Below are positions 1 through 17,396 of a DNA stretch of 25,317 bases, one piece after another (position 1 is the stretch's first letter; the number at the start of each line of letters is the position of its first letter). This DNA comes from a virus, in the IMG/VR virus record IMGVR_UViG_3300013286_000658, positions 1 to 25,317 of that record. One strand, given 5' to 3'. The notes under the pieces are model-generated. The model saw only the letters and a list, made by a program, of their open reading frames with translations. It did no database searches and was not told the DNA's origin. Position numbers and translations under genes: made by a program.

Positions 1-1
1 A

Positions 2-19
2 GACGGCAAGAAAAAGTAA
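2..19 (+). CDS. Possible 3' end of an upstream gene (last five codons)
   Basis: Reading frame 2 gives DGKKK and then a TAA stop just before the promoter at 28. A lysine-rich tail directly upstream of a promoter is what the end of a preceding gene would look like, but five codons cannot prove it or identify the product. Confidence 0.25.
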   Translation, partial: DGKKK

Positions 20-27
20 TCAATTTC

Positions 28-56
28 TTGACAGGCTTCGTTTAAAATAGTATAAT
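28..56 (+). promoter_or_regulatory. Consensus sigma70 promoter of the dnaJ-def-clpA operon
   Basis: The sequence has a perfect -35 box TTGACA at 28-33 and a perfect -10 box TATAAT at 51-56, with exactly 17 bases between them. Transcription would start near 63, leaving a leader of about 25 bases before the dnaJ start. This is the form expected of an early phage promoter read by unmodified host RNA polymerase. The same architecture recurs at 13569 and 17393. Confidence 0.85.
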
Positions 57-87
57 TAATACTATAAACGGAGCCTTTTTTACGACT

Positions 88-942
88 ATGACTGATTATT
101 ACCAAACACTAGGTGTTAGCGAAAATGCTAGCCCAGACGAAATAAAAAAAGCATATAGAACTTTGGCTAATAAACATCATCCAGACAAGGGTGGGGATCA
201 AGCCAAATTCAAAGATATTAGTGTTGCCAACGATATTCTAGGCGACCCACAAAAACGTGCCGAGTATGACCAACAGAGGAGATTTGGTGGTGGCCCGCAA
301 GTAAGATTTACCACTGACGGATTTGATCCATTCGGTGCAATGTTTGGCCAACAATTTCCACAAGGACATCCTTTTGGAGATATATTTGGTCAAATGCATC
401 GACAACGCAGAAATAGAGACCTTAATATACAATGTCAGATTACATTGTTAGATAGTTTTCAAGGCAAACAATTAGAAGCACAATATCAATTACCTAGTGG
501 TCGTACACAAACTGTAGTCATCAATGTACCGGCTGGTATCGATCACGGATCGACTATACGTTATCCCGGATTAGGTGACGATAGTACACCCGGTGCTCCA
601 CGTGGGGATTTAAATGTTACTATTTTAATTCAACCCGATCGCAACTTTGAACGTAGGAACGATGACTTGTATACTACTGTAGAAATAAGTCCAATCGAAG
701 CTATGCTAGGTTGTAGGAAAGCTGTAAAAACCATTACAGGTTCTACAATAGAATTAGAAATTCGTGCAGGTGTAGAAACTGGAGTAGAATTTGCCAGCGC
801 CGGACAAGGATTTCAAAACGTAAATCATCAAGTTAAGGGCAGATTTGTAACTGTGGTTAAAATAAAAACGCCTACTATAAGAGATCCGGCATTAATAACT
901 AAACTGAGGGAATTAGATGTTCTCATTAGTCAAAGATCCTAA
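88..942 (+). CDS. DnaJ/CbpA-like co-chaperone (class B J-protein)
   Basis: This is a 284-residue J-domain co-chaperone that would stimulate the host Hsp70 (DnaK) ATPase and deliver substrates to it. Residues 1-65 form a complete J domain with the diagnostic HPD at 31-33. A short Gly/Phe-rich linker follows (about 66-105, with repeated FG and GG), then the two-part beta-sandwich substrate-binding region (about 106-275). The CxxCxGxG zinc repeats of class A DnaJ are absent, so it resembles CbpA, slightly shorter. The start is fixed because the J domain begins directly at the ATG. The likely ribosome site GGAG (70-73) is unusually far, 14 bases upstream. It is the first gene of the operon and its last 26 bases overlap the deformylase gene. 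Most phage J-proteins I know of are only fragments, so a full-length one is uncommon. Confidence 0.92.
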   Translation: MTDYYQTLGVSENASPDEIKKAYRTLANKHHPDKGGDQAKFKDISVANDILGDPQKRAEYDQQRRFGGGPQVRFTTDGFDPFGAMFGQQFPQGHPFGDIFGQMHRQRRNRDLNIQCQITLLDSFQGKQLEAQYQLPSGRTQTVVINVPAGIDHGSTIRYPGLGDDSTPGAPRGDLNVTILIQPDRNFERRNDDLYTTVEISPIEAMLGCRKAVKTITGSTIELEIRAGVETGVEFASAGQGFQNVNHQVKGRFVTVVKIKTPTIRDPALITKLRELDVLISQRS

Positions 943-1405
943 TCCAATTCTAAAACAAGAAGCGGAGAATTGGGATTTTAATCAACATGTCAATGCCGGA
1001 GTAGTCGAGCAAGAAATGCTCGACACAATGAATTCATTTAATGGCATCGGACTAGCCGCAAACCAAGTTGGATTACTACGCAGAGTATTTGTTATGCGTA
1101 CACAAGACGGCAGACAATTTGGATGCTTTAACCCATGGATCATGTTCGGCGATAACGATTTAATCGAAGACCGAGAAGGATGCTTGAGTTTTCCAGAACT
1201 ATGGCTCAAAGTCTCTCGCCATAATAAAATTACTGCCGGCTATCTTGACAATACCGGAAAACCGTGTATAATAGAATTAGAAGGCATTGATGCAAGATGC
1301 TTCCAACATGAACTAGATCATTTAAATGGAATTACATTTACAGAACATGTAAGTGCATTAAAATTACAAATGGCACGAAAGAAACAGAGGAAACTAAATG
1401 GTTGA
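917..1405 (+). CDS. def: Peptide deformylase
   Basis: This metalloenzyme removes the N-formyl group from nascent proteins at the ribosome. All three family motifs are present: GIGLAANQ (residues 43-50), EGCLSFP (87-93, with metal ligand Cys89) and HELDH (131-135, with two metal-binding His and the catalytic Glu). At 162 residues it is about the usual length for a bacterial deformylase, and it carries a short basic tail (ARKKQRKLNG). The ATG at 917 follows GAGGG at 906-910 at a good distance and lies inside the end of dnaJ. The stop overlaps the clpA start by 8 bases, so all three genes look translationally coupled. Deformylases are known from T4-like cyanophages. Placement between a J-protein and a Clp unfoldase is consistent with a nascent-chain processing role. 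Confidence 0.95.
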   Translation: MFSLVKDPNPILKQEAENWDFNQHVNAGVVEQEMLDTMNSFNGIGLAANQVGLLRRVFVMRTQDGRQFGCFNPWIMFGDNDLIEDREGCLSFPELWLKVSRHNKITAGYLDNTGKPCIIELEGIDARCFQHELDHLNGITFTEHVSALKLQMARKKQRKLNG

Positions 1406-3686
1406 ACCAAGCGACAATTTGCAATTAGTATTCGAAAAAGCAATCGAAACTGCAAAACAAAATAATCACGAATACTTAACGATCGAACATTTATTGTTTG
1501 CCATGCTGTGCGAAGAAGCATTTTCAAACACTATCCAAGGTTACGGAAGCGACCCGGAATTTATTAAAAAGAATCTCGAGCATTATTTAAAAAATAAGTG
1601 CGACGAAATTACTGCGGCTGGTCCTGTAGTTAAACCTAAGAAAACACAAGCAGTCGAACGTGTGCTTAACAAAGCATTTACACAAGTGCTGTTTAACGGA
1701 CGTCAAAAGATTGAACCTGCCGATGTATTCCTTGCCATGATGGGCGAGAAACGTAGTTGGGCACATTTTTATATTGCACAAGCAGAGATTGACAAAGATA
1801 AGTTTGCTGATTATTTGAATAACAGCATCGAAACTCAAGATGAAGAAGAACCTGACATGGGTTCTGCACAAGGAAACAAAGCTCTGAAAGCATTTACTAC
1901 TAATCTTAACGAGCAAGTTAAGAAGAATAAAATCGATCCTGTAATTGGTCGAATTGACGAATTAGAAAATGTTGCGCTGGCTATGGGACGTCGTAGTAAA
2001 AACAACGTAATCCTTGTTGGAGATCCTGGAGTAGGTAAGACTGCTATTGCAGAAGGACTTGCATACAATATTGTCAAAGGCGCAGTTCCCGACTTTCTCA
2101 AAGAATATAGTGTTTATAATCTAGACATTAGTGCCATGCTTGCAGGCAGTAAATATCGCGGCGATTTTGAAGAACGATTTAAAATGGTTCTTAAAGGACT
2201 TGCTACAAAAGGCAAAACTATTTTGTTTATCGACGAAGCGCACATGATTAGTGGTGCGGGTTCAGCAAGCAATAGTGCTAACGACTTGTCTAATATGATG
2301 AAGCCAGCACTGAGCAAAGGTACTATCAAAGTTATCGCAAGTACTACATGGGAAGAATATCGTAAACACTTTGAAAAGGACCGTGCATTAATGCGCCGCT
2401 TCCAACGCATCACAGTTGACGAGCCTACTCAAGAAGTTACATTGCAGATCCTTAAAGGAATTAAAAAGTATTATGAACAGTTCCATAATACCAAGATTAA
2501 AGATGATGCGCTACTAACTGCAATTAAGTTAAGCGTGAAATATCAATCAGATAAGAAATTGCCCGATAAGGCCATCGATTTAATCGACGTAGCATGTTCC
2601 CGCTTTAATTTAAAGCTAGCAGAAGAACGTGTTGTTTCTTCAGAAAGTATTCAATATGAACTTTCTAAAATGATTAACATGCCAGAAGAGCAGGTCGCAG
2701 AGCAAGAAAGCGAAAATCTGGTTAACTTAGAATCCAAGTTGTCTACAGAAGTATACGGCCAGGATCTTGCTATTACAGAAATTGTTGATAAGATTATGGT
2801 TGCACAAGCTGGCCTTAAATCAGAGAACAAACCTGTTGGTAGCTTTGTGTTCATGGGCCCGACTGGAACTGGTAAAACTGAAACTGCTAAGAGTTTAGCT
2901 AAGAACTTAGGTGTTAAGTTGCTACGTTTTGATATGAGTGAATATCAAGAAAAGCATAGCATTAGTAAATTAATCGGTAGTCCTCCAGGGTACGTTGGAT
3001 TCGAAGAAGATGCTGGTCAATTGATTACTCAGATCCAAGAAGCTCCCAATGCTGTATTGTTACTAGATGAAATTGAAAAGGCTCATCCAGATGTAATGAC
3101 AGTATTGCTACAACTAATGGATAACGGTTCTATTACAGGATCTAACGGCAAGAAAGCAGACTGTCGAAATATTATTCTTATCCTTACTACTAATGCCGGT
3201 GCAAGCGATGCTGAAAAGAACGCAATTGGCTTTGGCGGGCAAGAAAAAGAGTATAGCGATAAGGACTTAAAGAAGTTTTTAACTCCTGAATTCCGTAATC
3301 GCTTAGATGGTATTGTTACATTCAATAAACTTGGTAGAGATACTATGGTTAAGATTGTTAACAAGTTTATCGACCAACTTAAAGAACAAGTTAAAGACAA
3401 GGCAGTGCGTATCAAAATTGATAAAGAAGCTGTTAATTGGCTTATCGATAAAGGATTCGATGCTAAGATGGGTGCTCGTCCGTTGCAACGTGTCATTGAC
3501 AAGGAAATTAAACGTGACCTTGCTAAACTCATGTTGTTTGGAGAGTTGAAGAAAGGCGGCTGGGTAACTATTACTATTGACGATGATAAAATCGCTCTTG
3601 CAGTAAAACCTAAGACTCCTAAATTACCGTTTGCGGCTTCCGAGTCGGCGAACATAAGTATTGTAGATGATATACAAGGAAACTAA
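1398..3686 (+). CDS. ClpA-like AAA+ unfoldase with two ATPase modules
   Basis: This 762-residue Clp/Hsp100 ATPase is almost exactly the length of E. coli ClpA. The N-domain occupies about 1-140. The first AAA+ module has Walker A GDPGVGKT (208-215), Walker B LFIDEAH (276-282), the pore-loop region KYRGDFEER (252-260) and an arginine-finger segment (ALMRRFQ, 330-336). The second has Walker A GPTGTGKT (487-494), a LLLDEIEKAH Walker B and a ClpA-type C-terminal domain (FTPEFRNRLD-like, GARPLQRVI). There is no long coiled-coil M domain, so it is ClpA-like and not ClpB. An IGF tripeptide at 610-612 sits where ClpA carries its ClpP-docking loop, so the protein could feed substrates to host ClpP. 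The start follows AGAGGA at 1386-1391. No clpP is seen in the window. Confidence 0.92.
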   Translation: MVEPSDNLQLVFEKAIETAKQNNHEYLTIEHLLFAMLCEEAFSNTIQGYGSDPEFIKKNLEHYLKNKCDEITAAGPVVKPKKTQAVERVLNKAFTQVLFNGRQKIEPADVFLAMMGEKRSWAHFYIAQAEIDKDKFADYLNNSIETQDEEEPDMGSAQGNKALKAFTTNLNEQVKKNKIDPVIGRIDELENVALAMGRRSKNNVILVGDPGVGKTAIAEGLAYNIVKGAVPDFLKEYSVYNLDISAMLAGSKYRGDFEERFKMVLKGLATKGKTILFIDEAHMISGAGSASNSANDLSNMMKPALSKGTIKVIASTTWEEYRKHFEKDRALMRRFQRITVDEPTQEVTLQILKGIKKYYEQFHNTKIKDDALLTAIKLSVKYQSDKKLPDKAIDLIDVACSRFNLKLAEERVVSSESIQYELSKMINMPEEQVAEQESENLVNLESKLSTEVYGQDLAITEIVDKIMVAQAGLKSENKPVGSFVFMGPTGTGKTETAKSLAKNLGVKLLRFDMSEYQEKHSISKLIGSPPGYVGFEEDAGQLITQIQEAPNAVLLLDEIEKAHPDVMTVLLQLMDNGSITGSNGKKADCRNIILILTTNAGASDAEKNAIGFGGQEKEYSDKDLKKFLTPEFRNRLDGIVTFNKLGRDTMVKIVNKFIDQLKEQVKDKAVRIKIDKEAVNWLIDKGFDAKMGARPLQRVIDKEIKRDLAKLMLFGELKKGGWVTITIDDDKIALAVKPKTPKLPFAASESANISIVDDIQGN

Positions 3687-4293
3687 AAGTCTTTTTTTAA
3701 AAAAGTATCAGTATAAAGCTGTATTGGTATGCCCTGCCGCTGCCGGTTTTCGCGGCGGGGATTTTGAAACAGCACTTACTGATCTAAAAAATTACGATTT
3801 AAACGCTAGTTCAATATTCGGTTGGAAAAATAAGATTAAGACGCACGACGATTTACAATATAGTATATCATTATGTGCCGATCTTAAAAATCTAAACGGC
3901 ATTGAAACTAGAGTAGAAAGTCCATTTATAAGCATATACACAAACAGTATAAAAGATATTAATTTACTAAAAAAACGATATGCGGATCATGTAAAATATA
4001 TCAGCAAACCTGCGAAATCAGGACAATTAGAAGAGGGTGTAATAGTAATGCCCAAGATGGACTTTGATTTTAAAGTAACTCTTGCGGCAACTAAAACAGA
4101 GTACAGCGCATTTGTACAATGGGCTGAAACTAACAGCAAAGTTAAGATTACAAAAAGCTGTAAGCGTGATTTGAGTAAGAATCGTAGTTGGGGCGGTACC
4201 CATTTTTATGTTACCGGCTCCAACAATTTGCTCATGGTAAAGATGCATTTAGGCGGGTGTATTGCTAAAATACAGCGCATAATCAAAGAATAA
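3667..4293 (+). CDS. Conserved phage protein of unknown function
   Basis: This is a 208-residue protein whose start overlaps the end of the clpA-like gene by 20 bases, and it is the last gene before the terminator at 4314. It resembles a family I recall in T4-like cyanophages, with a basic N-terminus (KETKSLFLKKYQYK), an FRGGD-type motif near residues 28-32 and a C-terminal block containing SWGGTHFYV followed by a hydrophobic KMHLGG segment. It has no signal peptide, no clear membrane segment and no catalytic motif I recognise. Operon position raises the possibility that it works with the chaperone and protease genes, for example as an adaptor, but nothing in the sequence shows this. Confidence 0.8.
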   Translation: MIYKETKSLFLKKYQYKAVLVCPAAAGFRGGDFETALTDLKNYDLNASSIFGWKNKIKTHDDLQYSISLCADLKNLNGIETRVESPFISIYTNSIKDINLLKKRYADHVKYISKPAKSGQLEEGVIVMPKMDFDFKVTLAATKTEYSAFVQWAETNSKVKITKSCKRDLSKNRSWGGTHFYVTGSNNLLMVKMHLGGCIAKIQRIIKE

Positions 4294-4310
4294 TTTGCTA
4301 ACCATATTAC

Positions 4311-4318
4311 GATAAATA
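4311..4318 (+). promoter_or_regulatory. T4-type late promoter upstream of the first virion block
   Basis: GATAAATA followed by CTCT matches the T4 late promoter consensus (TATAAATA followed by CTATT) except at the first base, and equals the NATAAATA form known for T4-like cyanophages. It is 48 bases upstream of the 4367 start. In T4 such sites are read by RNA polymerase carrying gp55 with gp33 and the sliding clamp. A transcript starting about six bases downstream would begin inside the terminator hairpin and would lack most of its left arm. Confidence 0.65.
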
Positions 4319-4349
4319 CTCTAACACCCTTGTGTTAGGGTATTTTATT
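4314..4349 (+). terminator. Intrinsic terminator of the proteostasis operon
   Basis: A 14-pair hairpin (arms 4314-4327 and 4332-4345, one T:G wobble) closes on the four-base loop CCTT. The run TATTTTATT overlaps the end of the second arm. It lies 20 bases after the stop of the unknown gene at 3667-4293. A late-type promoter element (4311-4318) overlaps its left arm. Confidence 0.85.
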
Positions 4350-4366
4350 GATTAACGGGCTATTAT

Positions 4367-4738
4367 ATGCGAATTAAAGACCTTTGTGAAAGTGTAGGCC
4401 AAGAGCTAGACAAAGATGTAAAACATCAAGACAAACACGGCTTAGGCTACGATTTAGTAGACGATTTGCTATTTTTCATGCATCACGACGATGATGCATA
4501 TCGACGTCATACCTATCCAAGCATTATGAAAGCCCGTGATCACATGGCTGGCAATAAGCCTACAGACATGGCGCTGTTCAGCGATGCCGTCAACGAAGCG
4601 TATGAAAAGTATCGTAATAAATTCCATGAAGTTAGAGCACTTCCAGAAAAACTAGACGAAGAAACTCTGGGAGAAATTTGTTCTCATATGCATGAACACG
4701 AAACTAAAAAGATCCAAGACGGTCATTACGAGGATTAA
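4367..4738 (+). CDS. Conserved phage protein, possibly virion-associated
   Basis: This is a 123-residue acidic, His- and Asp-rich protein of unknown function (segments such as FMHHDDDAYRRHTYP and ICSHMHEHE). It resembles proteins I remember from T4-like cyanophages, but no function is known to me. The N-terminus MRIKDLCESVG is a weak match to the short leader seen on other proteins of this block. It is the first gene after the late promoter and is followed two bases later by the ligase-like gene. The His/Asp clusters could bind metal, though no recognised motif is present. It may be a small structural or head protein. Confidence 0.8.
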   Translation: MRIKDLCESVGQELDKDVKHQDKHGLGYDLVDDLLFFMHHDDDAYRRHTYPSIMKARDHMAGNKPTDMALFSDAVNEAYEKYRNKFHEVRALPEKLDEETLGEICSHMHEHETKKIQDGHYED

Positions 4739-4740
4739 TA

Positions 4741-5961
4741 GTGTTACTCCGTGAATTATTCCTTAAGGAAAATCAAGCAGGCCCGCATCCTACAACAGGT
4801 ATAGCACTGGGCCGTGCTTTCAACCACCCGGAGCATTTTATTATATTCTACGGGTTGTCTGGTATTAAGGAAGGCATACAGCATTTAGAAGATGCTGTTG
4901 GAGAAGACAAGCAATTACGTTTTAAATGGGACGGCAATCCTCAAATCTATTGGGGACGAGAAAGAAAGAATGGTCCATTAATTCTAGCAGGACATAACGG
5001 TTGGGCTAAAGGCGGTCGTGGTAATGGTACTACAATGGATGACTTTACAAGTCCAGAAGCTGTAGAAAATTTCATTCTACACAAAAGCGGTGAAGGTGCG
5101 AAGGGAGAAGAAATAACTCCTGAACGTCAACGATTTGCCAGCGAGTTTAGTAATCTATATCATATTTTTGATGCGGCAACTCCTAAAGATTTTGTAGGGT
5201 TCGTGTATGCCGATGCATTATTCTTGCCCAGTACAAAGCCAACGGCGCAAAATGGCATATACACCATGCATCCTAATCCACATAGTAAATCAGAATATCA
5301 CGTGGATGCGAACGGCACAGGGCCATTAAATTTAAGCAAACGTATTCCCCAAGCACAAGCGATGGTTGTAGCACACGGAACATTCAAAACATTTGGTGCT
5401 CCGGATAACGAGCAAATACCAGTAGACGATTTTAGTAAATTTGATAAAAGTCCTGGTTTGATTGTAGTAAGTCCAATATATAATAATGAAAAGCCTGATG
5501 TAGACATGTCTAGCATCAACCAAGTTAAAGAAGTAGGTGGCTATATTGACCAGCACGGAGAAAATATTCAAAATTTTGTAACACACATTCCTACGGGCGA
5601 TAGACAAGGATTCTTCTACAAATTTTTAAACCAACGTAATTCAGCGAACGATTTTGATACAATCACACCACAGATGTTTTATAACTGGATGGCACAACCT
5701 AATAAAGATGGCAAACCCCAGGTTAGTCTTAATAAACAACAACATATTAAAAATACAGATTTAAAATTTAATGCATTGGCGCCCATGTTTCACTTGATGA
5801 AAATTATGCGTCATTCTCGACATGCTATCAACGATAGTGTAAATAGTAAACACAAGCCGGAATGTTGGGCAACTAATCCAGAAGGATTTGTGCGTTATGC
5901 AAATCCAAAGAAATTCCAACACGGACATGTTAAATTTCAAAATGCGGGGTGGAAAGATTGA
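4741..5961 (+). CDS. Putative covalent nucleotidyltransferase / ligase-like protein
   Basis: This is a 406-residue protein with motifs that look like the DNA/RNA ligase and capping-enzyme superfamily. Motif I is KWDG with candidate nucleotidyl-accepting Lys62. A motif III-like stretch GFVYADAL lies at 153-160. EGFV (381-384) resembles motif IV and VKFQN with Lys398 resembles motif V. The 336-residue span between motifs I and V is longer than in T4 RNA ligases, implying insertions. The GTG start follows GAGG at 4729-4732. The N-terminus MLLRELFLKEN looks like a T4 head-targeting leader with a cut after Glu10. It lies between late genes and overlaps the next gene by 4 bases. Enzymatic activity is inferred from motifs only. 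The family may be annotated as unknown in databases. Confidence 0.6.
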   Translation: MLLRELFLKENQAGPHPTTGIALGRAFNHPEHFIIFYGLSGIKEGIQHLEDAVGEDKQLRFKWDGNPQIYWGRERKNGPLILAGHNGWAKGGRGNGTTMDDFTSPEAVENFILHKSGEGAKGEEITPERQRFASEFSNLYHIFDAATPKDFVGFVYADALFLPSTKPTAQNGIYTMHPNPHSKSEYHVDANGTGPLNLSKRIPQAQAMVVAHGTFKTFGAPDNEQIPVDDFSKFDKSPGLIVVSPIYNNEKPDVDMSSINQVKEVGGYIDQHGENIQNFVTHIPTGDRQGFFYKFLNQRNSANDFDTITPQMFYNWMAQPNKDGKPQVSLNKQQHIKNTDLKFNALAPMFHLMKIMRHSRHAINDSVNSKHKPECWATNPEGFVRYANPKKFQHGHVKFQNAGWKD

Positions 5962-7445
5962 GTCAAGTAGCAATTATATTTGGGCGTTTTAATCCGCCAC
6001 ACAAAGGACATAAAGTTGCATGGAAACGTGCGGCTACTATTCCACATTGGTTTGTAGGCACTAACGAGTCAACAGTTGGTCCTACTGATCCATTGCCGTT
6101 TAATATTAAAGAAAAAGCAATGTTGGCAATATATCCCGAACTTAAAGGGCATTTGATCACACAACAAAGTTGGTTTACAATGGCTTCTGCTATATTTGAA
6201 CGTTACGGCGATGTTGAATTAATTTGTGTAACAGATGAAGCATGGGTTGTTCCAGGCTTGCAAAAAGCCAATGGTAGGGAAGACCGACACGGGTACTACA
6301 AATTTTCTAATATTAGATTATTTCATAAAGATGTTGGTGCCGCAAAAGCAGACATGCGCAAAGGCAAAGCAAGCGATTTACGTGCTGCCGCATTAGCTGG
6401 CGATAGAGAAGCATTTACAAATGCCGCCGGCATATCTGCAGAGACTATGGTTGCTGGACATCCATATTTTGATTTAGTAGTGCATTATTTAAAACCGTAC
6501 GGCGCAAAAGCTGAAAAGGCAAATGCAAAGAAACTTGCGACCGCAGAACCAGTAAATACAGTAGAACCACAGGAACCAGTTATGAAACAAGGACCAGCGA
6601 AAGAATTGGCAGAATCGATGCATCGACGTGATGCGTATCAACGCGATGAATTTAGTGCTCACCAAGGCTTTGGCCGAGCGCACAAAGAGTGGGACGAAGG
6701 TAACACTGAGCCGCCAAATAATTTTGCTATTCATATTAACGGCAAGAAGTGGAAAGTATTACCAGGTCATGGAACTTATGCAGATGATCACCGTGAACAA
6801 AAACAACATCGTCAATTACAAGACATGTGTGCTAAGAAGACAGCTTCTACAGGTAAAAAATGGACTGTTCATCCTACTGGCGAACAAGCAACTGTTGAAA
6901 GTGTAGCAGAAAGTAAAACTGTAAAAGCAGAAGCTCCTAAACCACGTAACTTTGTTGCTAAGAATGCCGTTAATACAGGTGCAGGCGCACACAAGGACAA
7001 GAAGAAAGCTGCCAAACAAGGTGATGTTAAACACAAAAAACAATTGGAATTTGCAGAAGGACGATTAGGATCTAGTTTAAATTCAATGTTTGAAGAAAAG
7101 TTTCGTGCTAGATTAAAAGAAGCTGTGCTACGTGCTGACACGGCAAGTTCAATGCCTAACTTACGTATTCATCCAGATTTAGACAACTCTAGTCCATATA
7201 AAGCATATCGTTATGGCGTTGCTATGGCGAGCCAACCACGTGGTCCTGCTGACGAAAAAGGCCCGTTTGGTCAAAAGATGATTACTATAGGTTACACAGA
7301 AGCCGATAATGAAATTATACGTGCAACTGATAAAAAAATGCACTCTAAAAGCCAAGCAATGTCAGATGGTAAAAGTAAAGAATTAGAAGATACACAAACT
7401 GTTAGTCCAATCGCAAAGCCTAAACGTAACCAATATGGTGTATAA
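5958..7445 (+). CDS. HxGH nucleotidylyltransferase fused to phage virion-type domains
   Basis: The protein is 495 residues from the TTG at 5958. That TTG overlaps the previous stop as TTGA and has a purine-rich GTGGAAAG just upstream; a GTG nine bases earlier is the alternative start. The N-terminal ~190 residues form a cytidylyltransferase-like domain with NPPHKGH (HxGH at 15-18) and a later SDLR (139-142) at the place of the ISSTxxR signature. This superfamily includes NMN, phosphopantetheine and glycerol-3-phosphate nucleotidylyltransferases, and the substrate cannot be told. A charged linker follows, then a domain with FAIHINGKKWKV and a VHPTGE end (about 255-310), then a C-terminal domain (about 397-495) ending in SPIAKPKRNQYGV. 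The last domain is shared with the gene at 8196. Late-block position suggests it is packaged. Confidence 0.8.
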   Translation: MSQVAIIFGRFNPPHKGHKVAWKRAATIPHWFVGTNESTVGPTDPLPFNIKEKAMLAIYPELKGHLITQQSWFTMASAIFERYGDVELICVTDEAWVVPGLQKANGREDRHGYYKFSNIRLFHKDVGAAKADMRKGKASDLRAAALAGDREAFTNAAGISAETMVAGHPYFDLVVHYLKPYGAKAEKANAKKLATAEPVNTVEPQEPVMKQGPAKELAESMHRRDAYQRDEFSAHQGFGRAHKEWDEGNTEPPNNFAIHINGKKWKVLPGHGTYADDHREQKQHRQLQDMCAKKTASTGKKWTVHPTGEQATVESVAESKTVKAEAPKPRNFVAKNAVNTGAGAHKDKKKAAKQGDVKHKKQLEFAEGRLGSSLNSMFEEKFRARLKEAVLRADTASSMPNLRIHPDLDNSSPYKAYRYGVAMASQPRGPADEKGPFGQKMITIGYTEADNEIIRATDKKMHSKSQAMSDGKSKELEDTQTVSPIAKPKRNQYGV

Positions 7446-7885
7446 TGGAACATAATAAATATCATCTATCACTAAAAACAGCATTTGCCAGCGAGTTCAG
7501 CTTTTATTTAAAAGCGCATAACTTTCATTGGAATGTGGAAGGACCGTTGTTTGCACAACTACACAAACTATTTAAAACCATATACAAAGAAGTATATGGT
7601 GCGATTGATCCTTTTGCCGAGCATCTTCGTGCTTTGCAAATTTATACACCAGCCAGTTACAGCAAATTTAATATGTTGACTAAGGTAGAGGATGAGAATG
7701 CTGTGCCGGATTGGAATGGCATGCTGACTGAATTGCTAGCAGACAGTGAACGTATGGCTGAAATATTCCGTATTACATTTGAAATGGCTGAAGCGGCTGG
7801 GGACCATGGGCTAAGTAATTTTTTAGCAGATCGTCAAGATCAACATAAGAAACATAGTTGGATGCTGAGATCTAGTTTAAAATGA
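7445..7885 (+). CDS. dps: Dps-family ferritin-like DNA-protection protein
   Basis: This is a 146-residue ferritin-like protein. Dps dodecamers oxidise and store iron using H2O2 and protect DNA. The dinuclear ferroxidase site is fully kept: His28 in NFHWNV, His40, Asp55 and Glu59, with spacings of 12, 15 and 4 that match E. coli Dps His51, His63, Asp78 and Glu82. It is shorter than E. coli Dps (167 residues) and lacks the long Lys-rich N-terminal DNA-binding tail. The ATG overlaps the previous stop by one base (TAATG) and the stop overlaps the next start, so it is embedded in the late operon. It may guard DNA in the infected cell or be packaged with it; the sequence does not say which. Confidence 0.9.
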   Translation: MEHNKYHLSLKTAFASEFSFYLKAHNFHWNVEGPLFAQLHKLFKTIYKEVYGAIDPFAEHLRALQIYTPASYSKFNMLTKVEDENAVPDWNGMLTELLADSERMAEIFRITFEMAEAAGDHGLSNFLADRQDQHKKHSWMLRSSLK

Positions 7886-8199
7886 GACAATATAGAATTA
7901 CCAGTGCTGATCTAAACCAAGACAGTCCCGACGACTGTTATCTTGCGCCAAATGATCCTATACACGAAATGAAAGCAATAGCACACTTGGGCGGACTAGG
8001 CGGCGATGCAAGATTACATAAATTACGTGCCGAGCAAGGCAGTAACATAAGTGTTACTGGTAATGAGAAAGGCCGTATACAACGTGAAATGAACATACAA
8101 CCAGGCACAGATGAATGGTTTAAACTATGGTTTAGTCTTCCTAAATTTATGGAAGGCGAAAAAGCCGTAGGAGCAGGATTTAGAGGTGTAAGAAAATGA
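7882..8199 (+). CDS. Conserved phage protein of unknown function
   Basis: This is a 105-residue soluble protein with no function known to me. Its N-terminal half (ITSADLNQDSPDDCYLAPND followed by a HEMKAIAHLGGLGG segment) resembles small proteins I recall from T4-like cyanophages. It shares ATGA overlaps with both the Dps gene and the gene at 8196, so it should be made together with them from the late promoters. No membrane segment or metal-binding motif is visible. Confidence 0.8.
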   Translation: MRQYRITSADLNQDSPDDCYLAPNDPIHEMKAIAHLGGLGGDARLHKLRAEQGSNISVTGNEKGRIQREMNIQPGTDEWFKLWFSLPKFMEGEKAVGAGFRGVRK

Positions 8200-8549
8200 G
8201 AGCAAAAGAGTTTGTTAATGAGGCTAAAAGTCAGGAAATACGCCGGGCTGTGAAATTAGCCGGACCTTACGCCAAAAGGTACGATCAAATCGGAACTTAT
8301 TATGATATGTATAGGTTAGGTGTAGCTATTGCCGGTGGCAAAGATACTCCCCCCGAGGGCCCTGTTAGAGATAATCCAACTGTTTGGATCATGAACGATG
8401 TAGAAAACGACAAGATTAAGATGGCTGAAAAGGTTCTAGGCATCAAGGGAACTGTTGTTTCTCCTCAAGGCCCTAGTCAAGAAATGACGGATTTAACTAA
8501 CACTACTAGTCCGATCGCAAAGCCTAAGCGTAACAAGTACGGTATATGA
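8196..8549 (+). CDS. Small virion-type protein sharing a C-terminal module with the 5958 gene
   Basis: This is a 117-residue protein of unknown function. The N-terminus MRAKEFVNEAK closely resembles the leader of T4 internal protein III (MKTYQEFIAEA), which targets proteins into the prohead and is cut after Glu. The rest (about 22-117) aligns with the C-terminal ~100 residues of the nucleotidylyltransferase fusion: both have a YR-GVA-A core, a GP turn and the tail SPIAKPKRN-x-YG. It is therefore essentially a leader plus that module. Start and stop both overlap neighbours by 4 bases. A head-internal or structural role is inferred. Confidence 0.8.
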   Translation: MRAKEFVNEAKSQEIRRAVKLAGPYAKRYDQIGTYYDMYRLGVAIAGGKDTPPEGPVRDNPTVWIMNDVENDKIKMAEKVLGIKGTVVSPQGPSQEMTDLTNTTSPIAKPKRNKYGI

Positions 8550-13957: not shown

Positions 13958-16624
13958 ATGAGCTATGTAGACGCATGGTTTGACCGTGATAATGACGTTA
14001 TCAAAGTAGTCGAACGCAACAAGAAAGGTGAAAGGGAATTTAGAGATATTCCTGTACGCCACACATTTTATTATTCAGACCCTCGCGGTAAGTATCAAAG
14101 CATTTACGGCGATCCTCTTGGCAAGATTGTAGTTAAAAGTACCAAAGAACTACGCAAAGAACAAGCCATACACAGCAATCAAAAGTTATTTGAAAGCGAC
14201 ATCAATCCAATCTTTTCGTGCCTAAGCGAAAACTATCTTAACGCAGATGCTCCAAAACTACATGCGGCATTTTTCGATATTGAGGTAGACTTTGATCCAG
14301 AGCGTGGCTATGCTAGTCCAGACGATGCATTTATGCCAATCACTGCGATTGCAGTTTACCTACAGTGGATGGAAACTATGATATGCTTGGCCATTCCTCC
14401 AAAGGGTGTTAAGATGGAGGATGCCAAAGAAATGGTCAAAGACTTTCCTAATACATACTTGTTTGAAAAAGAAGGTGAACTGTTAGACATGTTCTTAGAC
14501 TTGATCAAAGATGCAGATATATTAAGTGGTTGGAACAGCGAAGGTTTCGACGTACCATACACAACTAACCGTATTACCAAAGTATTAAGCAAAGAAGATA
14601 CCCGTCGGTTCTGTTTGTTTGATCAATTGCCAAAGAAACGTGAATATGAAAAGTTTGGCCGGCTTGCCACAACATATGACTTTATAGGCCGTGTACATTT
14701 GGATTATCTTGAACTATATCGTAAGTACACATATGAAGAACGACATTCATATAGGCTGGATGCTATTGCCGAGTATGAACTAGGTCAACGTAAGACACAG
14801 TATGAAGGCACATTAGATCAGTTATACAACAACGACTTTCGTACATTTGTAGAATACAACATCAATGACTGTAAACTACTCGACGATCTGGATAAGAAAT
14901 TGAAATTCTTAGATCTTGCCAACACACTAGCACATGAAAACACAGTACTGCTACAAACTACAATGGGGGCCGTGGCTGTAACTGAACAAGCTATTATCAA
15001 CGAAGCACATCGTAGAGGTTTCCAAGTTCCTAATCGTACTAAAATGGATGATAGGGAGAACAGTGCGGCAGCTGGTGCGTATGTGGCTGTTCCTAAAGAA
15101 GGAATACATGATTGGGTTGGGTCCCTGGATATTAACAGTCTTTATCCTAGTGCCATTAGAGCACTTAACATGGGGCCAGAAACTATTATCGGTCAGTTGC
15201 GACAAACAATGACTGATGAATATATCGAAAATAAGATGGCAAAAGGCTCTAGTTTTGCGGCCGCTTGGGAAGGTATGTTTGGCAGTGTAGAATACACAGC
15301 AGTAATGAATCAAGAGATTGGAACTGAAATTACTATCGACTGGGAAAATGGCGATAGCGATGTGCTAAGTGCGGCTGAAGTGTATAAGCTAATATTTGAC
15401 AGCCATCAGCCGTGGATGTTAAGTGCTAACGGCACAATTTTCACTTATGAGAAAGAAGGTATTATCCCTGGACTGTTAAAGCGTTGGTATGCTGAACGTA
15501 AAGAGATGCAGGCCAAGCTCAAAGAGTGTATTAAAACAGGGAATAAAATTGAAGAAGAATACTGGGACAAGCGACAGCTCGTCAAAAAGATTAACCTTAA
15601 TAGTTTGTATGGTGCCATTCTTAACAGCGGTTGCAGGTTTTTTGATAAGCGTATTGGGCAGTCGACTACACTAACAGGTCGACAAATTGTTAAACATATG
15701 GCAGGTAAGGTCAATGAGATTGTAACCGGCGAATATGATTATCGTGGTAAGGCAATTATCTACGGTGATACTGACTCCTGTTATTTTTCAGCATTTAAGA
15801 CACTACAAAAAGATATTGACAATGGCAATATCGAATGGTCTAAAGAAAATGTAATTGCACTGTATGATAACATTGGCGAAGAAGTTAATACTACTTTCCC
15901 GCAGTTTATGTTGGATACATTCCATTGTCCAAAGACACGTGGAGAAGTTATCAAAGCAGGTCGAGAAATTGTTGGAAGTAAAAGTTTGTTTATTACTAAG
16001 AAGCGTTACGCTGTGTTGTATTACGACAAAGAAGGCAAACGTGCAGACGTAGATGGTAAGCCAGGTAAGATCAAGGCCATGGGCTTGGATCTAAAGCGTA
16101 GTGATACTCCAGAATTTATTCAAAACTTTTTAAGTGATGTACTTGAAATGGTACTGATGGGTAAGCCTGAACAAGAAGTTTTAGATGCAATCAGTGAATT
16201 CCGTCTAAGATTTAAAACTAGACCTGGATGGGAGAAAGGTTCGCCTAAACGTGCAAACAAAGTTACGGAATATCAAGCCAAAGAAGCCAAAGCCGGTAAG
16301 GCCAATATGCCAGGACATGTACGTGCTAGTATTAATTGGAATACACTAAAGCGTATGTTTGATGACAAATACAGCATGAACATTACAGACGGTGCTAAAG
16401 TTATTGTTTGCAAATTGAAAACTAACCCGCTTGGATTTACTAGCGTTGCATATCCAGTAGACGAATTGCGTTTGCCACAATGGTTTAAAGATTTGCCATT
16501 TGATCACGCAGAAATGGAACAGACTATTATTGACAACAAGTTGGATAACTTGATTGGCGTACTAAACTGGGACGTTCGTAGTACAGAAGAAAAGAATACT
16601 TTTAATAATTTATTTGAGTTCTAA
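13958..16624 (+). CDS. 43: Replicative DNA polymerase, family B (T4 gp43-like)
   Basis: This is an 888-residue replicative polymerase with proofreading exonuclease, close to T4 gp43 (898 residues). The exonuclease has FDIEVDF (Asp107, Glu109), SGWNSEGFD (Asp198) and YNIND (Tyr300, Asp304). The polymerase has motif A DINSLYPS (Asp391), motif B KKINLNSLYG (543-552) and motif C YGDTDS (602-607, with Asp604 and Asp606). All metal-binding acids are present, so it should be active. The start follows AGGAG at 13948-13952. No inteins or splits, which do occur in T4-like polymerase genes, are seen. It is likely co-transcribed with dsbA from 13569, and a dehydrogenase gene follows one base after its stop. 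Confidence 0.97.
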   Translation: MSYVDAWFDRDNDVIKVVERNKKGEREFRDIPVRHTFYYSDPRGKYQSIYGDPLGKIVVKSTKELRKEQAIHSNQKLFESDINPIFSCLSENYLNADAPKLHAAFFDIEVDFDPERGYASPDDAFMPITAIAVYLQWMETMICLAIPPKGVKMEDAKEMVKDFPNTYLFEKEGELLDMFLDLIKDADILSGWNSEGFDVPYTTNRITKVLSKEDTRRFCLFDQLPKKREYEKFGRLATTYDFIGRVHLDYLELYRKYTYEERHSYRLDAIAEYELGQRKTQYEGTLDQLYNNDFRTFVEYNINDCKLLDDLDKKLKFLDLANTLAHENTVLLQTTMGAVAVTEQAIINEAHRRGFQVPNRTKMDDRENSAAAGAYVAVPKEGIHDWVGSLDINSLYPSAIRALNMGPETIIGQLRQTMTDEYIENKMAKGSSFAAAWEGMFGSVEYTAVMNQEIGTEITIDWENGDSDVLSAAEVYKLIFDSHQPWMLSANGTIFTYEKEGIIPGLLKRWYAERKEMQAKLKECIKTGNKIEEEYWDKRQLVKKINLNSLYGAILNSGCRFFDKRIGQSTTLTGRQIVKHMAGKVNEIVTGEYDYRGKAIIYGDTDSCYFSAFKTLQKDIDNGNIEWSKENVIALYDNIGEEVNTTFPQFMLDTFHCPKTRGEVIKAGREIVGSKSLFITKKRYAVLYYDKEGKRADVDGKPGKIKAMGLDLKRSDTPEFIQNFLSDVLEMVLMGKPEQEVLDAISEFRLRFKTRPGWEKGSPKRANKVTEYQAKEAKAGKANMPGHVRASINWNTLKRMFDDKYSMNITDGAKVIVCKLKTNPLGFTSVAYPVDELRLPQWFKDLPFDHAEMEQTIIDNKLDNLIGVLNWDVRSTEEKNTFNNLFEF

Positions 16625-16625
16625 T

Positions 16626-17396
16626 ATGAAAATAATAGTTGCAGGTTACGGGTTTGTTGGCAAAGCGGTTGCTAATGTTCTTAAAGAGCATCATCATGCT
16701 GTTATTGTCGATCCACAGTATACTACAAATGAAATAAAATATCATTTAGATGCTGATGCTATTGTCATTTGTGTCAACACTCCTACTGGAGAGAACGGTA
16801 TTATCGCCGAGAATTTAGCAAACGTAATGGACCAAGTTCCAATATACATGCCTGTACTCGTTAAAAGCACCGTTACTCCAGCAGTAGTTGATACATTTAA
16901 TCAATTATATCCAGATCATAGTATATGTTATAGTCCAGAATTTTTAAGAGCTAAAACAGCAGATCAAGATTTTTTAAATCAAAAGTATGTTGTAATTGGT
17001 GGAGAAGATCCAGAAAGTTTTTGGCATGAATTATTTTTGCAAGTATTGCCTAATTGTAAAATAGTATTCAATTGTACAGCAGAAGAAGCCTGTATGGTCA
17101 AATATACTGCTAACTCATTCCTTGCACTTAAAGTTAGTTTCTTTAATCAAATTTTTGATCTGTGTCAAAAAGCAGGTATCGACTATGACACAGTTAGACA
17201 CATTGTAAGTCAGGATACAAGAATTGGATCAGGACATACTCTAGTTCCAGGGCCCGACAATAGTCGAGGCTTTGGCGGTGCATGTTTCCCCAAAGATACA
17301 GAAGCACTAGTACATTGGGCCAAGCATGTTGATGCAGTTCCAAGTTTGGTAGAATTCGCTATCCAATACAACAACAAAGTAAGAAAAATCTCTTGA
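16626..17396 (+). CDS. Short UDP-glucose/GDP-mannose-type nucleotide-sugar 6-dehydrogenase
   Basis: This is a 256-residue NAD-dependent enzyme of the family that oxidises UDP-glucose or a related sugar nucleotide to the uronic acid. The Rossmann motif GYGFVG (7-12), CVNTPT (49-54), VKSTVTP (79-85), YSPEFLRA (102-109), the helix with Lys159 and Asn163, and FGGACFPKD with catalytic Cys220 are all visible. Family members are usually about 390-450 residues. Here the protein stops soon after the catalytic loop, so the C-terminal sugar-nucleotide-binding domain is missing. The ATG at 16626 is preferred because the protein then begins directly with the first beta strand. Its stop overlaps the next promoter's -35 box. 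Activity without the third domain is uncertain. Confidence 0.85.
   Translation: MKIIVAGYGFVGKAVANVLKEHHHAVIVDPQYTTNEIKYHLDADAIVICVNTPTGENGIIAENLANVMDQVPIYMPVLVKSTVTPAVVDTFNQLYPDHSICYSPEFLRAKTADQDFLNQKYVVIGGEDPESFWHELFLQVLPNCKIVFNCTAEEACMVKYTANSFLALKVSFFNQIFDLCQKAGIDYDTVRHIVSQDTRIGSGHTLVPGPDNSRGFGGACFPKDTEALVHWAKHVDAVPSLVEFAIQYNNKVRKIS

Follow-up and report, generated by a model that had tools for sequence, protein, structure and literature searches.

A conserved dnaJ-def-clpA-orf4 unit in uncultivated jumbo phages and the promoter-hairpin element at its head

What is a block of protein-folding and protein-unfolding genes doing in a very large phage, and how might its transcription be set apart from that of its neighbours? 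The question is raised by one end of a 25,317-nt stretch of viral DNA (IMG/VR record IMGVR_UViG_3300013286_000658, positions 1 to 25,317; hereafter the window), where an original prediction had described dnaJ, def and a clpA-like gene as one proteostasis operon behind a single strong early promoter. The DNA polymerase places the window nearest to the Sinorhizobium phage Phosso and the Agrobacterium phage Atu_ph07, and the phage is a T4-superfamily jumbo phage related to both. Our favoured and, we think, probable reading is that dnaJ-def-clpA-orf4 is an early-class unit whose promoter, P1, is nested in a terminator-like hairpin that separates the unit from late lysis transcription. We are evenly divided on the wider proposition: that a sigma70 early promoter nested in an intrinsic-terminator stem-loop is a conserved composite element insulating an early chaperone/unfoldase unit from late lysis-gene transcription. 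Such an element would mirror the T4 lysozyme hairpin and offer a general means of setting early genes as an island within a late region. The unit and its head comprise the following features.

28-56, + strand: promoter P1, TTGACA-17-TATAAT, exact sigma70 consensus (motif scan)
34-75, + strand: hairpin, 17 bp with a 3-nt bulge, 42 nt (folding, covariation)
76-81, + strand: T-run 3' of the hairpin (sequence; relatives)
88-942, + strand: dnaJ, class-B J-domain protein of 284 amino acids (aa) with HPD motif (Pfam, NCBIfam and PDB comparisons)
917-1405, + strand: def, peptide deformylase, 162 aa (Pfam, NCBIfam and PDB comparisons)
1245-1272, + strand: promoter P2, TTGACA-16-TATAAT, inside def (motif scan; conservation)
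1398-3686, + strand: clpA, two-ring AAA+ unfoldase, 762 aa (Pfam, NCBIfam and PDB comparisons)
3225-3233, + strand: codons of the IGF motif (residues 610-612), ClpP-docking loop (aligned with IGL of E. coli ClpA)
3667-4293, + strand: orf4, 208 aa, two predicted tandem ferredoxin-like domains (synteny, AlphaFold2 model, fold searches)

Promoter P1 and the hairpin that encloses it

The perfect sigma70 promoter claimed ahead of dnaJ is indeed present, as TTGACA-N17-TATAAT, and is one of three exact matches in the window, against 0.05 expected from shuffles. Among the upstream regions of 88 relatives, 67 carry P1 with a 12/12 match, where none is expected in shuffles. The 5' arm of the hairpin lies in the P1 spacer, and the -10 box is in the loop and upper stem. 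The window element (positions 15-90) folds with a z of -4.8, and the distinct elements of the relatives have a median folding free energy of -19.4 kcal/mol and a median z of -6.1. Of 36 sigma70 promoters in G001, a 345-kb relative and the largest, the one with the P1 hairpin has the most extreme z (-7.5, next -5.1). A search for known RNA families in window positions 1-4500 gave nothing convincing for the hairpin, the best match being RT-2 at 3987-4144 with 18.9 bits against a gathering score of 40.

The pairing of the arms is itself conserved. The lower stem covaries between relatives (GGCTC/GAGCC, GGTCA/TGACC, GGTCC/GGACC, GGTCT/AGACC, GGGTA/TACCC, AGCAA/TTGCT and others), such that 18-19 different lower-arm sequences with compensatory changes are found. 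Pairs were counted with a script anchored on the arms from both ends, because the MAFFT alignment misplaces the 3' arms, and the freedom of register was equal for the shuffled control. Own-arm pairing is 6.86/8 compared with 5.49 +/- 0.13 for shuffled arms (maximum 5.90 in 500 shuffles); the related sequences are not independent, so that the shuffle counts are not probabilities, and more weight falls on how many different arm types occur.

This stable stem is followed directly by a T-run, the sequence form of an intrinsic terminator, and at least five T occur within 8 nt after the stem in 68 of 70 relatives. An RNA starting at about position 63 cannot form the hairpin, and therefore only RNA from upstream can. 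In relatives L048, L059 and L125 an additional gene has been inserted between the hairpin and dnaJ; the hairpin, its arms again complementary, still heads the unit. In L022 a different promoter overlaps an AAAGGC/GCCTTT stem with T7. Both variants fit termination. The inserted gene, of 232-235 aa, appears by eye to be 2-oxoglutarate/Fe(II) oxygenase-like.

The four genes, their products and a second promoter

The three open reading frames are present and overlapping as originally claimed, and the identities of DnaJ, peptide deformylase and ClpA are upheld by the Pfam, NCBIfam and PDB comparisons. The unit does not end with clpA. No terminator stands directly 3' of this gene, and that part of the prediction is rejected: clpA overlaps orf4 in turn, and a terminator-like hairpin follows orf4 instead. 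We conclude that orf4 is the fourth member of the unit. The prediction of a proteostasis unit transcribed from a host-type (early-class) promoter finds support in the gene content, in the intact catalytic motifs and in the conservation of overlaps and promoter; what falls from the operon as first described is the terminator after clpA and the single promoter.

The case against a single promoter is P2, a second exact match at 1245-1272 within def, which occurs at the same place in 65 of 81 distinct def genes compared with 0.4 expected under synonymous codon shuffling; the remaining 16 match at 10-11 of 12 positions. No conserved internal sigma70 promoter of this kind was found in dnaJ, clpA or orf4. 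Where def is missing, a promoter matching at 11-12 of 12 positions lies about 55 nt before clpA in 7 of 18 loci. The single-promoter operon is accordingly rejected, on a conservation far beyond chance. The comparison indicates that the P2 sequence is selected for, a clean case of a coding sequence under selection for a promoter, and, from its presence in most def genes and that of the promoter in def-less loci, that clpA usually has a promoter of its own. P2 would drive clpA-orf4.

IMG/VR scans gave at least 80 loci by ClpA and 80 by DnaJ. Counted as one locus per distinct ClpA protein, 95 loci with a complete dnaJ are found among the matches listed; within these, dnaJ-clpA order is kept in 95/95, def stands between the two in 77 and a complete def is lacking in 18. 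The dnaJ-def overlap is -26 or -23 nt in 73 of the 77, and orf4 then orf5 follow clpA in nearly all complete loci. Protein distances correlate with those of clpA weakly for def (r 0.23), and at r 0.60 for dnaJ and 0.76 for orf4. Given this weak correlation and its absence from 18 of 95 loci, def is a labile member of the unit. Several relatives have a ClpP gene elsewhere in the genome, and G001 also encodes DnaK and, less than 1 kb from it, ClpS; these two genes and that for ribosomal protein bS21 are all found in one 4-kb stretch (300190-304139). No GrpE was found in the relatives, most of whose records are fragments, so that absences mean little.

The window DnaJ is of class B, having a J-domain with HPD, a DnaJ_C domain and no zinc finger: Pfam reported only PF00226 and PF01556, with no zinc-finger model. 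It matches Thermus thermophilus DnaJ2 over nearly its full length, and HPD is kept in 94/94 DnaJ sequences. The peptide deformylase scores above the NCBIfam cut-off of TIGR00079, and the commonest forms among 81 sequences carry the motifs GxGLAxxQ, EGCLS and HExDH, allowing for minor variants. ClpA has a Clp_N domain and two AAA+ rings without a middle domain in about 760 aa (Pfam) and aligns full-length with E. coli ClpA (758 aa). In 106/106 phage ClpA proteins the Walker A motif of ring 1, pore loop 1 and both arginine fingers are identical, and the others among the Walker A/B and pore-loop motifs of the two rings vary conservatively. The window protein scores 884 bits against a cut-off of 993 for the NCBIfam equivalog TIGR02639, still the best of all models, and is for this reason best described as a divergent ClpA-type unfoldase and not an equivalog. 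The IGL/IGF ClpP-docking loop is absent in ClpB. As an IGF loop is present in all 106 proteins and aligns with IGL of E. coli ClpA, the phage protein is predicted to couple to ClpP.

With respect to partners and substrates, DnaJ would recruit an Hsp70 (the host's DnaK or, in phages that encode one, their own), peptide deformylase would deformylate new proteins, and ClpA would dock through its IGF loop on ClpP, the host's or that encoded by several relatives, to unfold and degrade substrates. The unit may serve in folding phage proteins or in removing host factors. The orf4 protein is modelled with high confidence as two ferredoxin-like domains by AlphaFold2 (predicted local distance difference test, pLDDT, 91). 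The window protein could be assigned to no family of Pfam, PHROG or NCBIfam and matches no sequence in the PDB, its sequence relatives are only in uncultured Caudovirales and, weakly, Atu_ph07, and the fold comparison turns up nothing beyond generic ferredoxin-like matches (best Z 5.8, short of what the tool counts as telling). A known adaptor is therefore rejected as its identity.

Late-type flanks and the competing readings

The borders of the unit are marked by three further features.

1-20, + strand: 3' end of the gene for an upstream small secreted Lys-rich protein, ending DGKKK and a stop codon (sequence; full gene at 5669-5932 in relative L082)
4311-4318, + strand: T4-type late promoter GATAAATA for orf5 (ATAAATA motif)
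4314-4345, + strand: terminator-like hairpin closing the unit and overlapping the late promoter (14 pairs, then TATTGATTAA after the TATTT arm)

In L082, dnaJ is preceded on its own strand by genes for two structural proteins of the virion, an endolysin, spanin-like proteins, one holin-like protein and the small secreted Lys-rich protein, whose gene comes last, behind the lysis cassette, in the relatives. ATAAATA, the core of the T4 late promoter, occurs about 0.8-1.0 kb upstream of dnaJ in many relatives and upstream of orf5 in 97/97, and in G001 it is depleted overall (72 against 190 expected), with 54 of the 72 within 120 nt upstream of an open reading frame. With late-type genes and motif on one side and the late promoter motif before orf5 on the other, the unit appears as an island with a host-type promoter between late-type regions. 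Elsewhere in G001, sigma70 promoters with perfect or nearly perfect matches follow one another over positions 185-7160, many of them ahead of short genes, in what looks like an early region.

In the reading we favour, P1 would start sigma70-dependent transcripts of dnaJ-def-clpA-orf4 and P2 would add transcripts of clpA-orf4. Transcripts from the late lysis genes (endolysin, spanins and holin) would copy both arms, fold the hairpin with its U-run and stop, or have the start region occluded; those started at P1, having no 5' arm, would proceed unhindered into dnaJ. In this way late transcription would be kept out of the unit, with the T4-type late promoter taking over at orf5. The conserved T-run suggests termination, and the hairpin probably stops transcription from the neighbouring lysis genes. 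The regulatory anatomy appears well supported by comparison, and from it we infer early timing and termination. Several observations weigh against this. The lysis genes are taken to be late by analogy and from the motif; a simple terminator scan did not flag the P1 hairpin, probably owing to its bulge, and the region has no excess of terminator-like matches over shuffles; the hairpin is lacking in L053 and L069, which have a P1-like promoter; and the window, a 25-kb fragment, has no clpP, clpS or dnaK.

The same hairpin could instead work as a translational switch like that of T4 gene e, hiding the dnaJ ribosome-binding region in read-through RNA without termination, while transcripts from P1, lacking the 5' arm, are translated. 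The geometry is the same as in T4 e, soc, 49 and I-TevI (PMC3014915, PMC2988022), GGAG is found in the leader of 41 of 70 relatives, and the hairpin ends 12 nt before the dnaJ start codon. However, the other 29 of the 70 keep the stem without GGAG, which argues that hiding the Shine-Dalgarno sequence is not the conserved purpose of the hairpin and would be secondary at most. In addition, some 14 nt separate the GGAG from the ATG, more than is usual, the T-run is kept in 68/70, and in L048, L059 and L125 the hairpin precedes a different first gene. We consider this switch distinctly unlikely. That the palindrome is a DNA operator, where a repressor dimer would cover the -10 box and silence P1, seems to us more improbable again. 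It is centred on the -10/start region, and repressors of heat-shock genes use inverted repeats near promoters, as in CIRCE/HrcA, but complementarity and not sequence is conserved in its lower arms, which makes an operator less likely, and the T-run would be left unexplained.

The unit itself might also be a loose cargo cluster whose adjacency has no functional meaning, with peptide deformylase acting in phage protein maturation, DnaJ in virion assembly and ClpA as an assembly translocase. The lability of def is in keeping with this, and translocase or virion-assembly roles have been suggested for jumbo-phage ClpA by Iyer et al. (PMC7824862). Against it, dnaJ-clpA-orf4 order is kept with tight spacing across the whole set, and dnaJ-clpA is found in Atu_ph07 and Phosso also. 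On balance we regard a cargo cluster as unlikely, and retain the reading of an insulated early-class unit.

Beyond the unit, the window has further features. Late-region proteins starting at 4367, 4741, 8196 and 8546 share similar short amphipathic N-termini (MRIRELLEG, VLLRELF, MRLRELFE), reminiscent of the T4 capsid-targeting sequences removed by the prohead protease, and are possibly internal virion proteins. The DUF6267 protein (4741-5961) contains FKWDGNPQIYWGRE, resembling the KxDG motif of covalent nucleotidyltransferases/ligases, and the otherwise different proteins of 5949-7445 and 8196-8549 have a common C-terminal SPIAKPKRNxYG(V/I). A Dps-like ferritin (7445-7885) and a UDP-sugar dehydrogenase (16614-17396) are possible auxiliary metabolic genes.

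Comparison with known systems

The gene cluster is real, conserved and known in kind. The rarity originally claimed for it does not hold, since the order is kept across uncultivated relatives, where it is routine, and is complete in one described isolate only, Phosso; ClpA and DnaJ have, moreover, both been described from jumbo phages before (PMC6102473, PMC7824862). In the open literature we found no description of dnaJ-def-clpA as a unit, or of the P1 hairpin arrangement for a unit of this kind. Phosso (PV764938) has the same order of DnaJ, peptide deformylase and Clp ATPase on one strand (XYS97351-XYS97353), encodes ClpP and ClpS, and has the closest named DNA polymerase to that of the window (49%). 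It differs in its two extra genes before dnaJ, in its size of 469 kb, in proteins about 36-45% identical to those of the window, and in that no sigma70-like promoter was found before the unit with a loose pattern. In Atu_ph07 (MF403008), DnaJ directly precedes ClpA (gp292-gp293) and ClpP and ClpS are also encoded (PMC6102473), but peptide deformylase was not found, nor such a promoter before the unit; its authors discuss ClpA together with ClpX, ClpB, ClpP and ClpS (PMC6102473). RaK2-like jumbo phages (121Q, RaK2, GAP32, CBB, Munch) commonly carry a ClpA of this kind, with about 40% identity, whereas slurp01, the one examined, has no dnaJ or def beside clpA on its strand. DnaJ and ClpA were noted in jumbo phages by Iyer et al. 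(PMC7824862). Lake phages encoding bS21, as does G001, are reported to have folding chaperones and Clp protease, in a source whose relevant part gives no gene order or promoter analysis (PMC9723584). An uncultivated jumbo-phage group thus keeps a dedicated unit, apparently driven by a host-type promoter, with ClpP, ClpS or DnaK elsewhere in some genomes. This suggests that very large phages have a core requirement to govern folding and proteolysis as infection begins.

The closest regulatory likeness is to T4. In e, soc, 49 and I-TevI a late promoter lies in a hairpin, and a hidden ribosome-binding site silences early read-through (PMC3014915, PMC2988022). A second promoter-in-hairpin of G001, at position 2926 (z -5.1), has GGAG in its 3' arm directly before the ATG and is more like this gene-e type. 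As in T4 gene e, the P1 promoter is placed so that only transcripts from upstream form the hairpin, those from P1 lacking the 5' arm. The embedded promoter of gene e is a T4 late promoter (TATAAATA), whereas here it is a sigma70 consensus with late genes upstream and a T-run behind the stem, and a promoter within a terminator hairpin would be a compact and easily tested design for temporal insulation.

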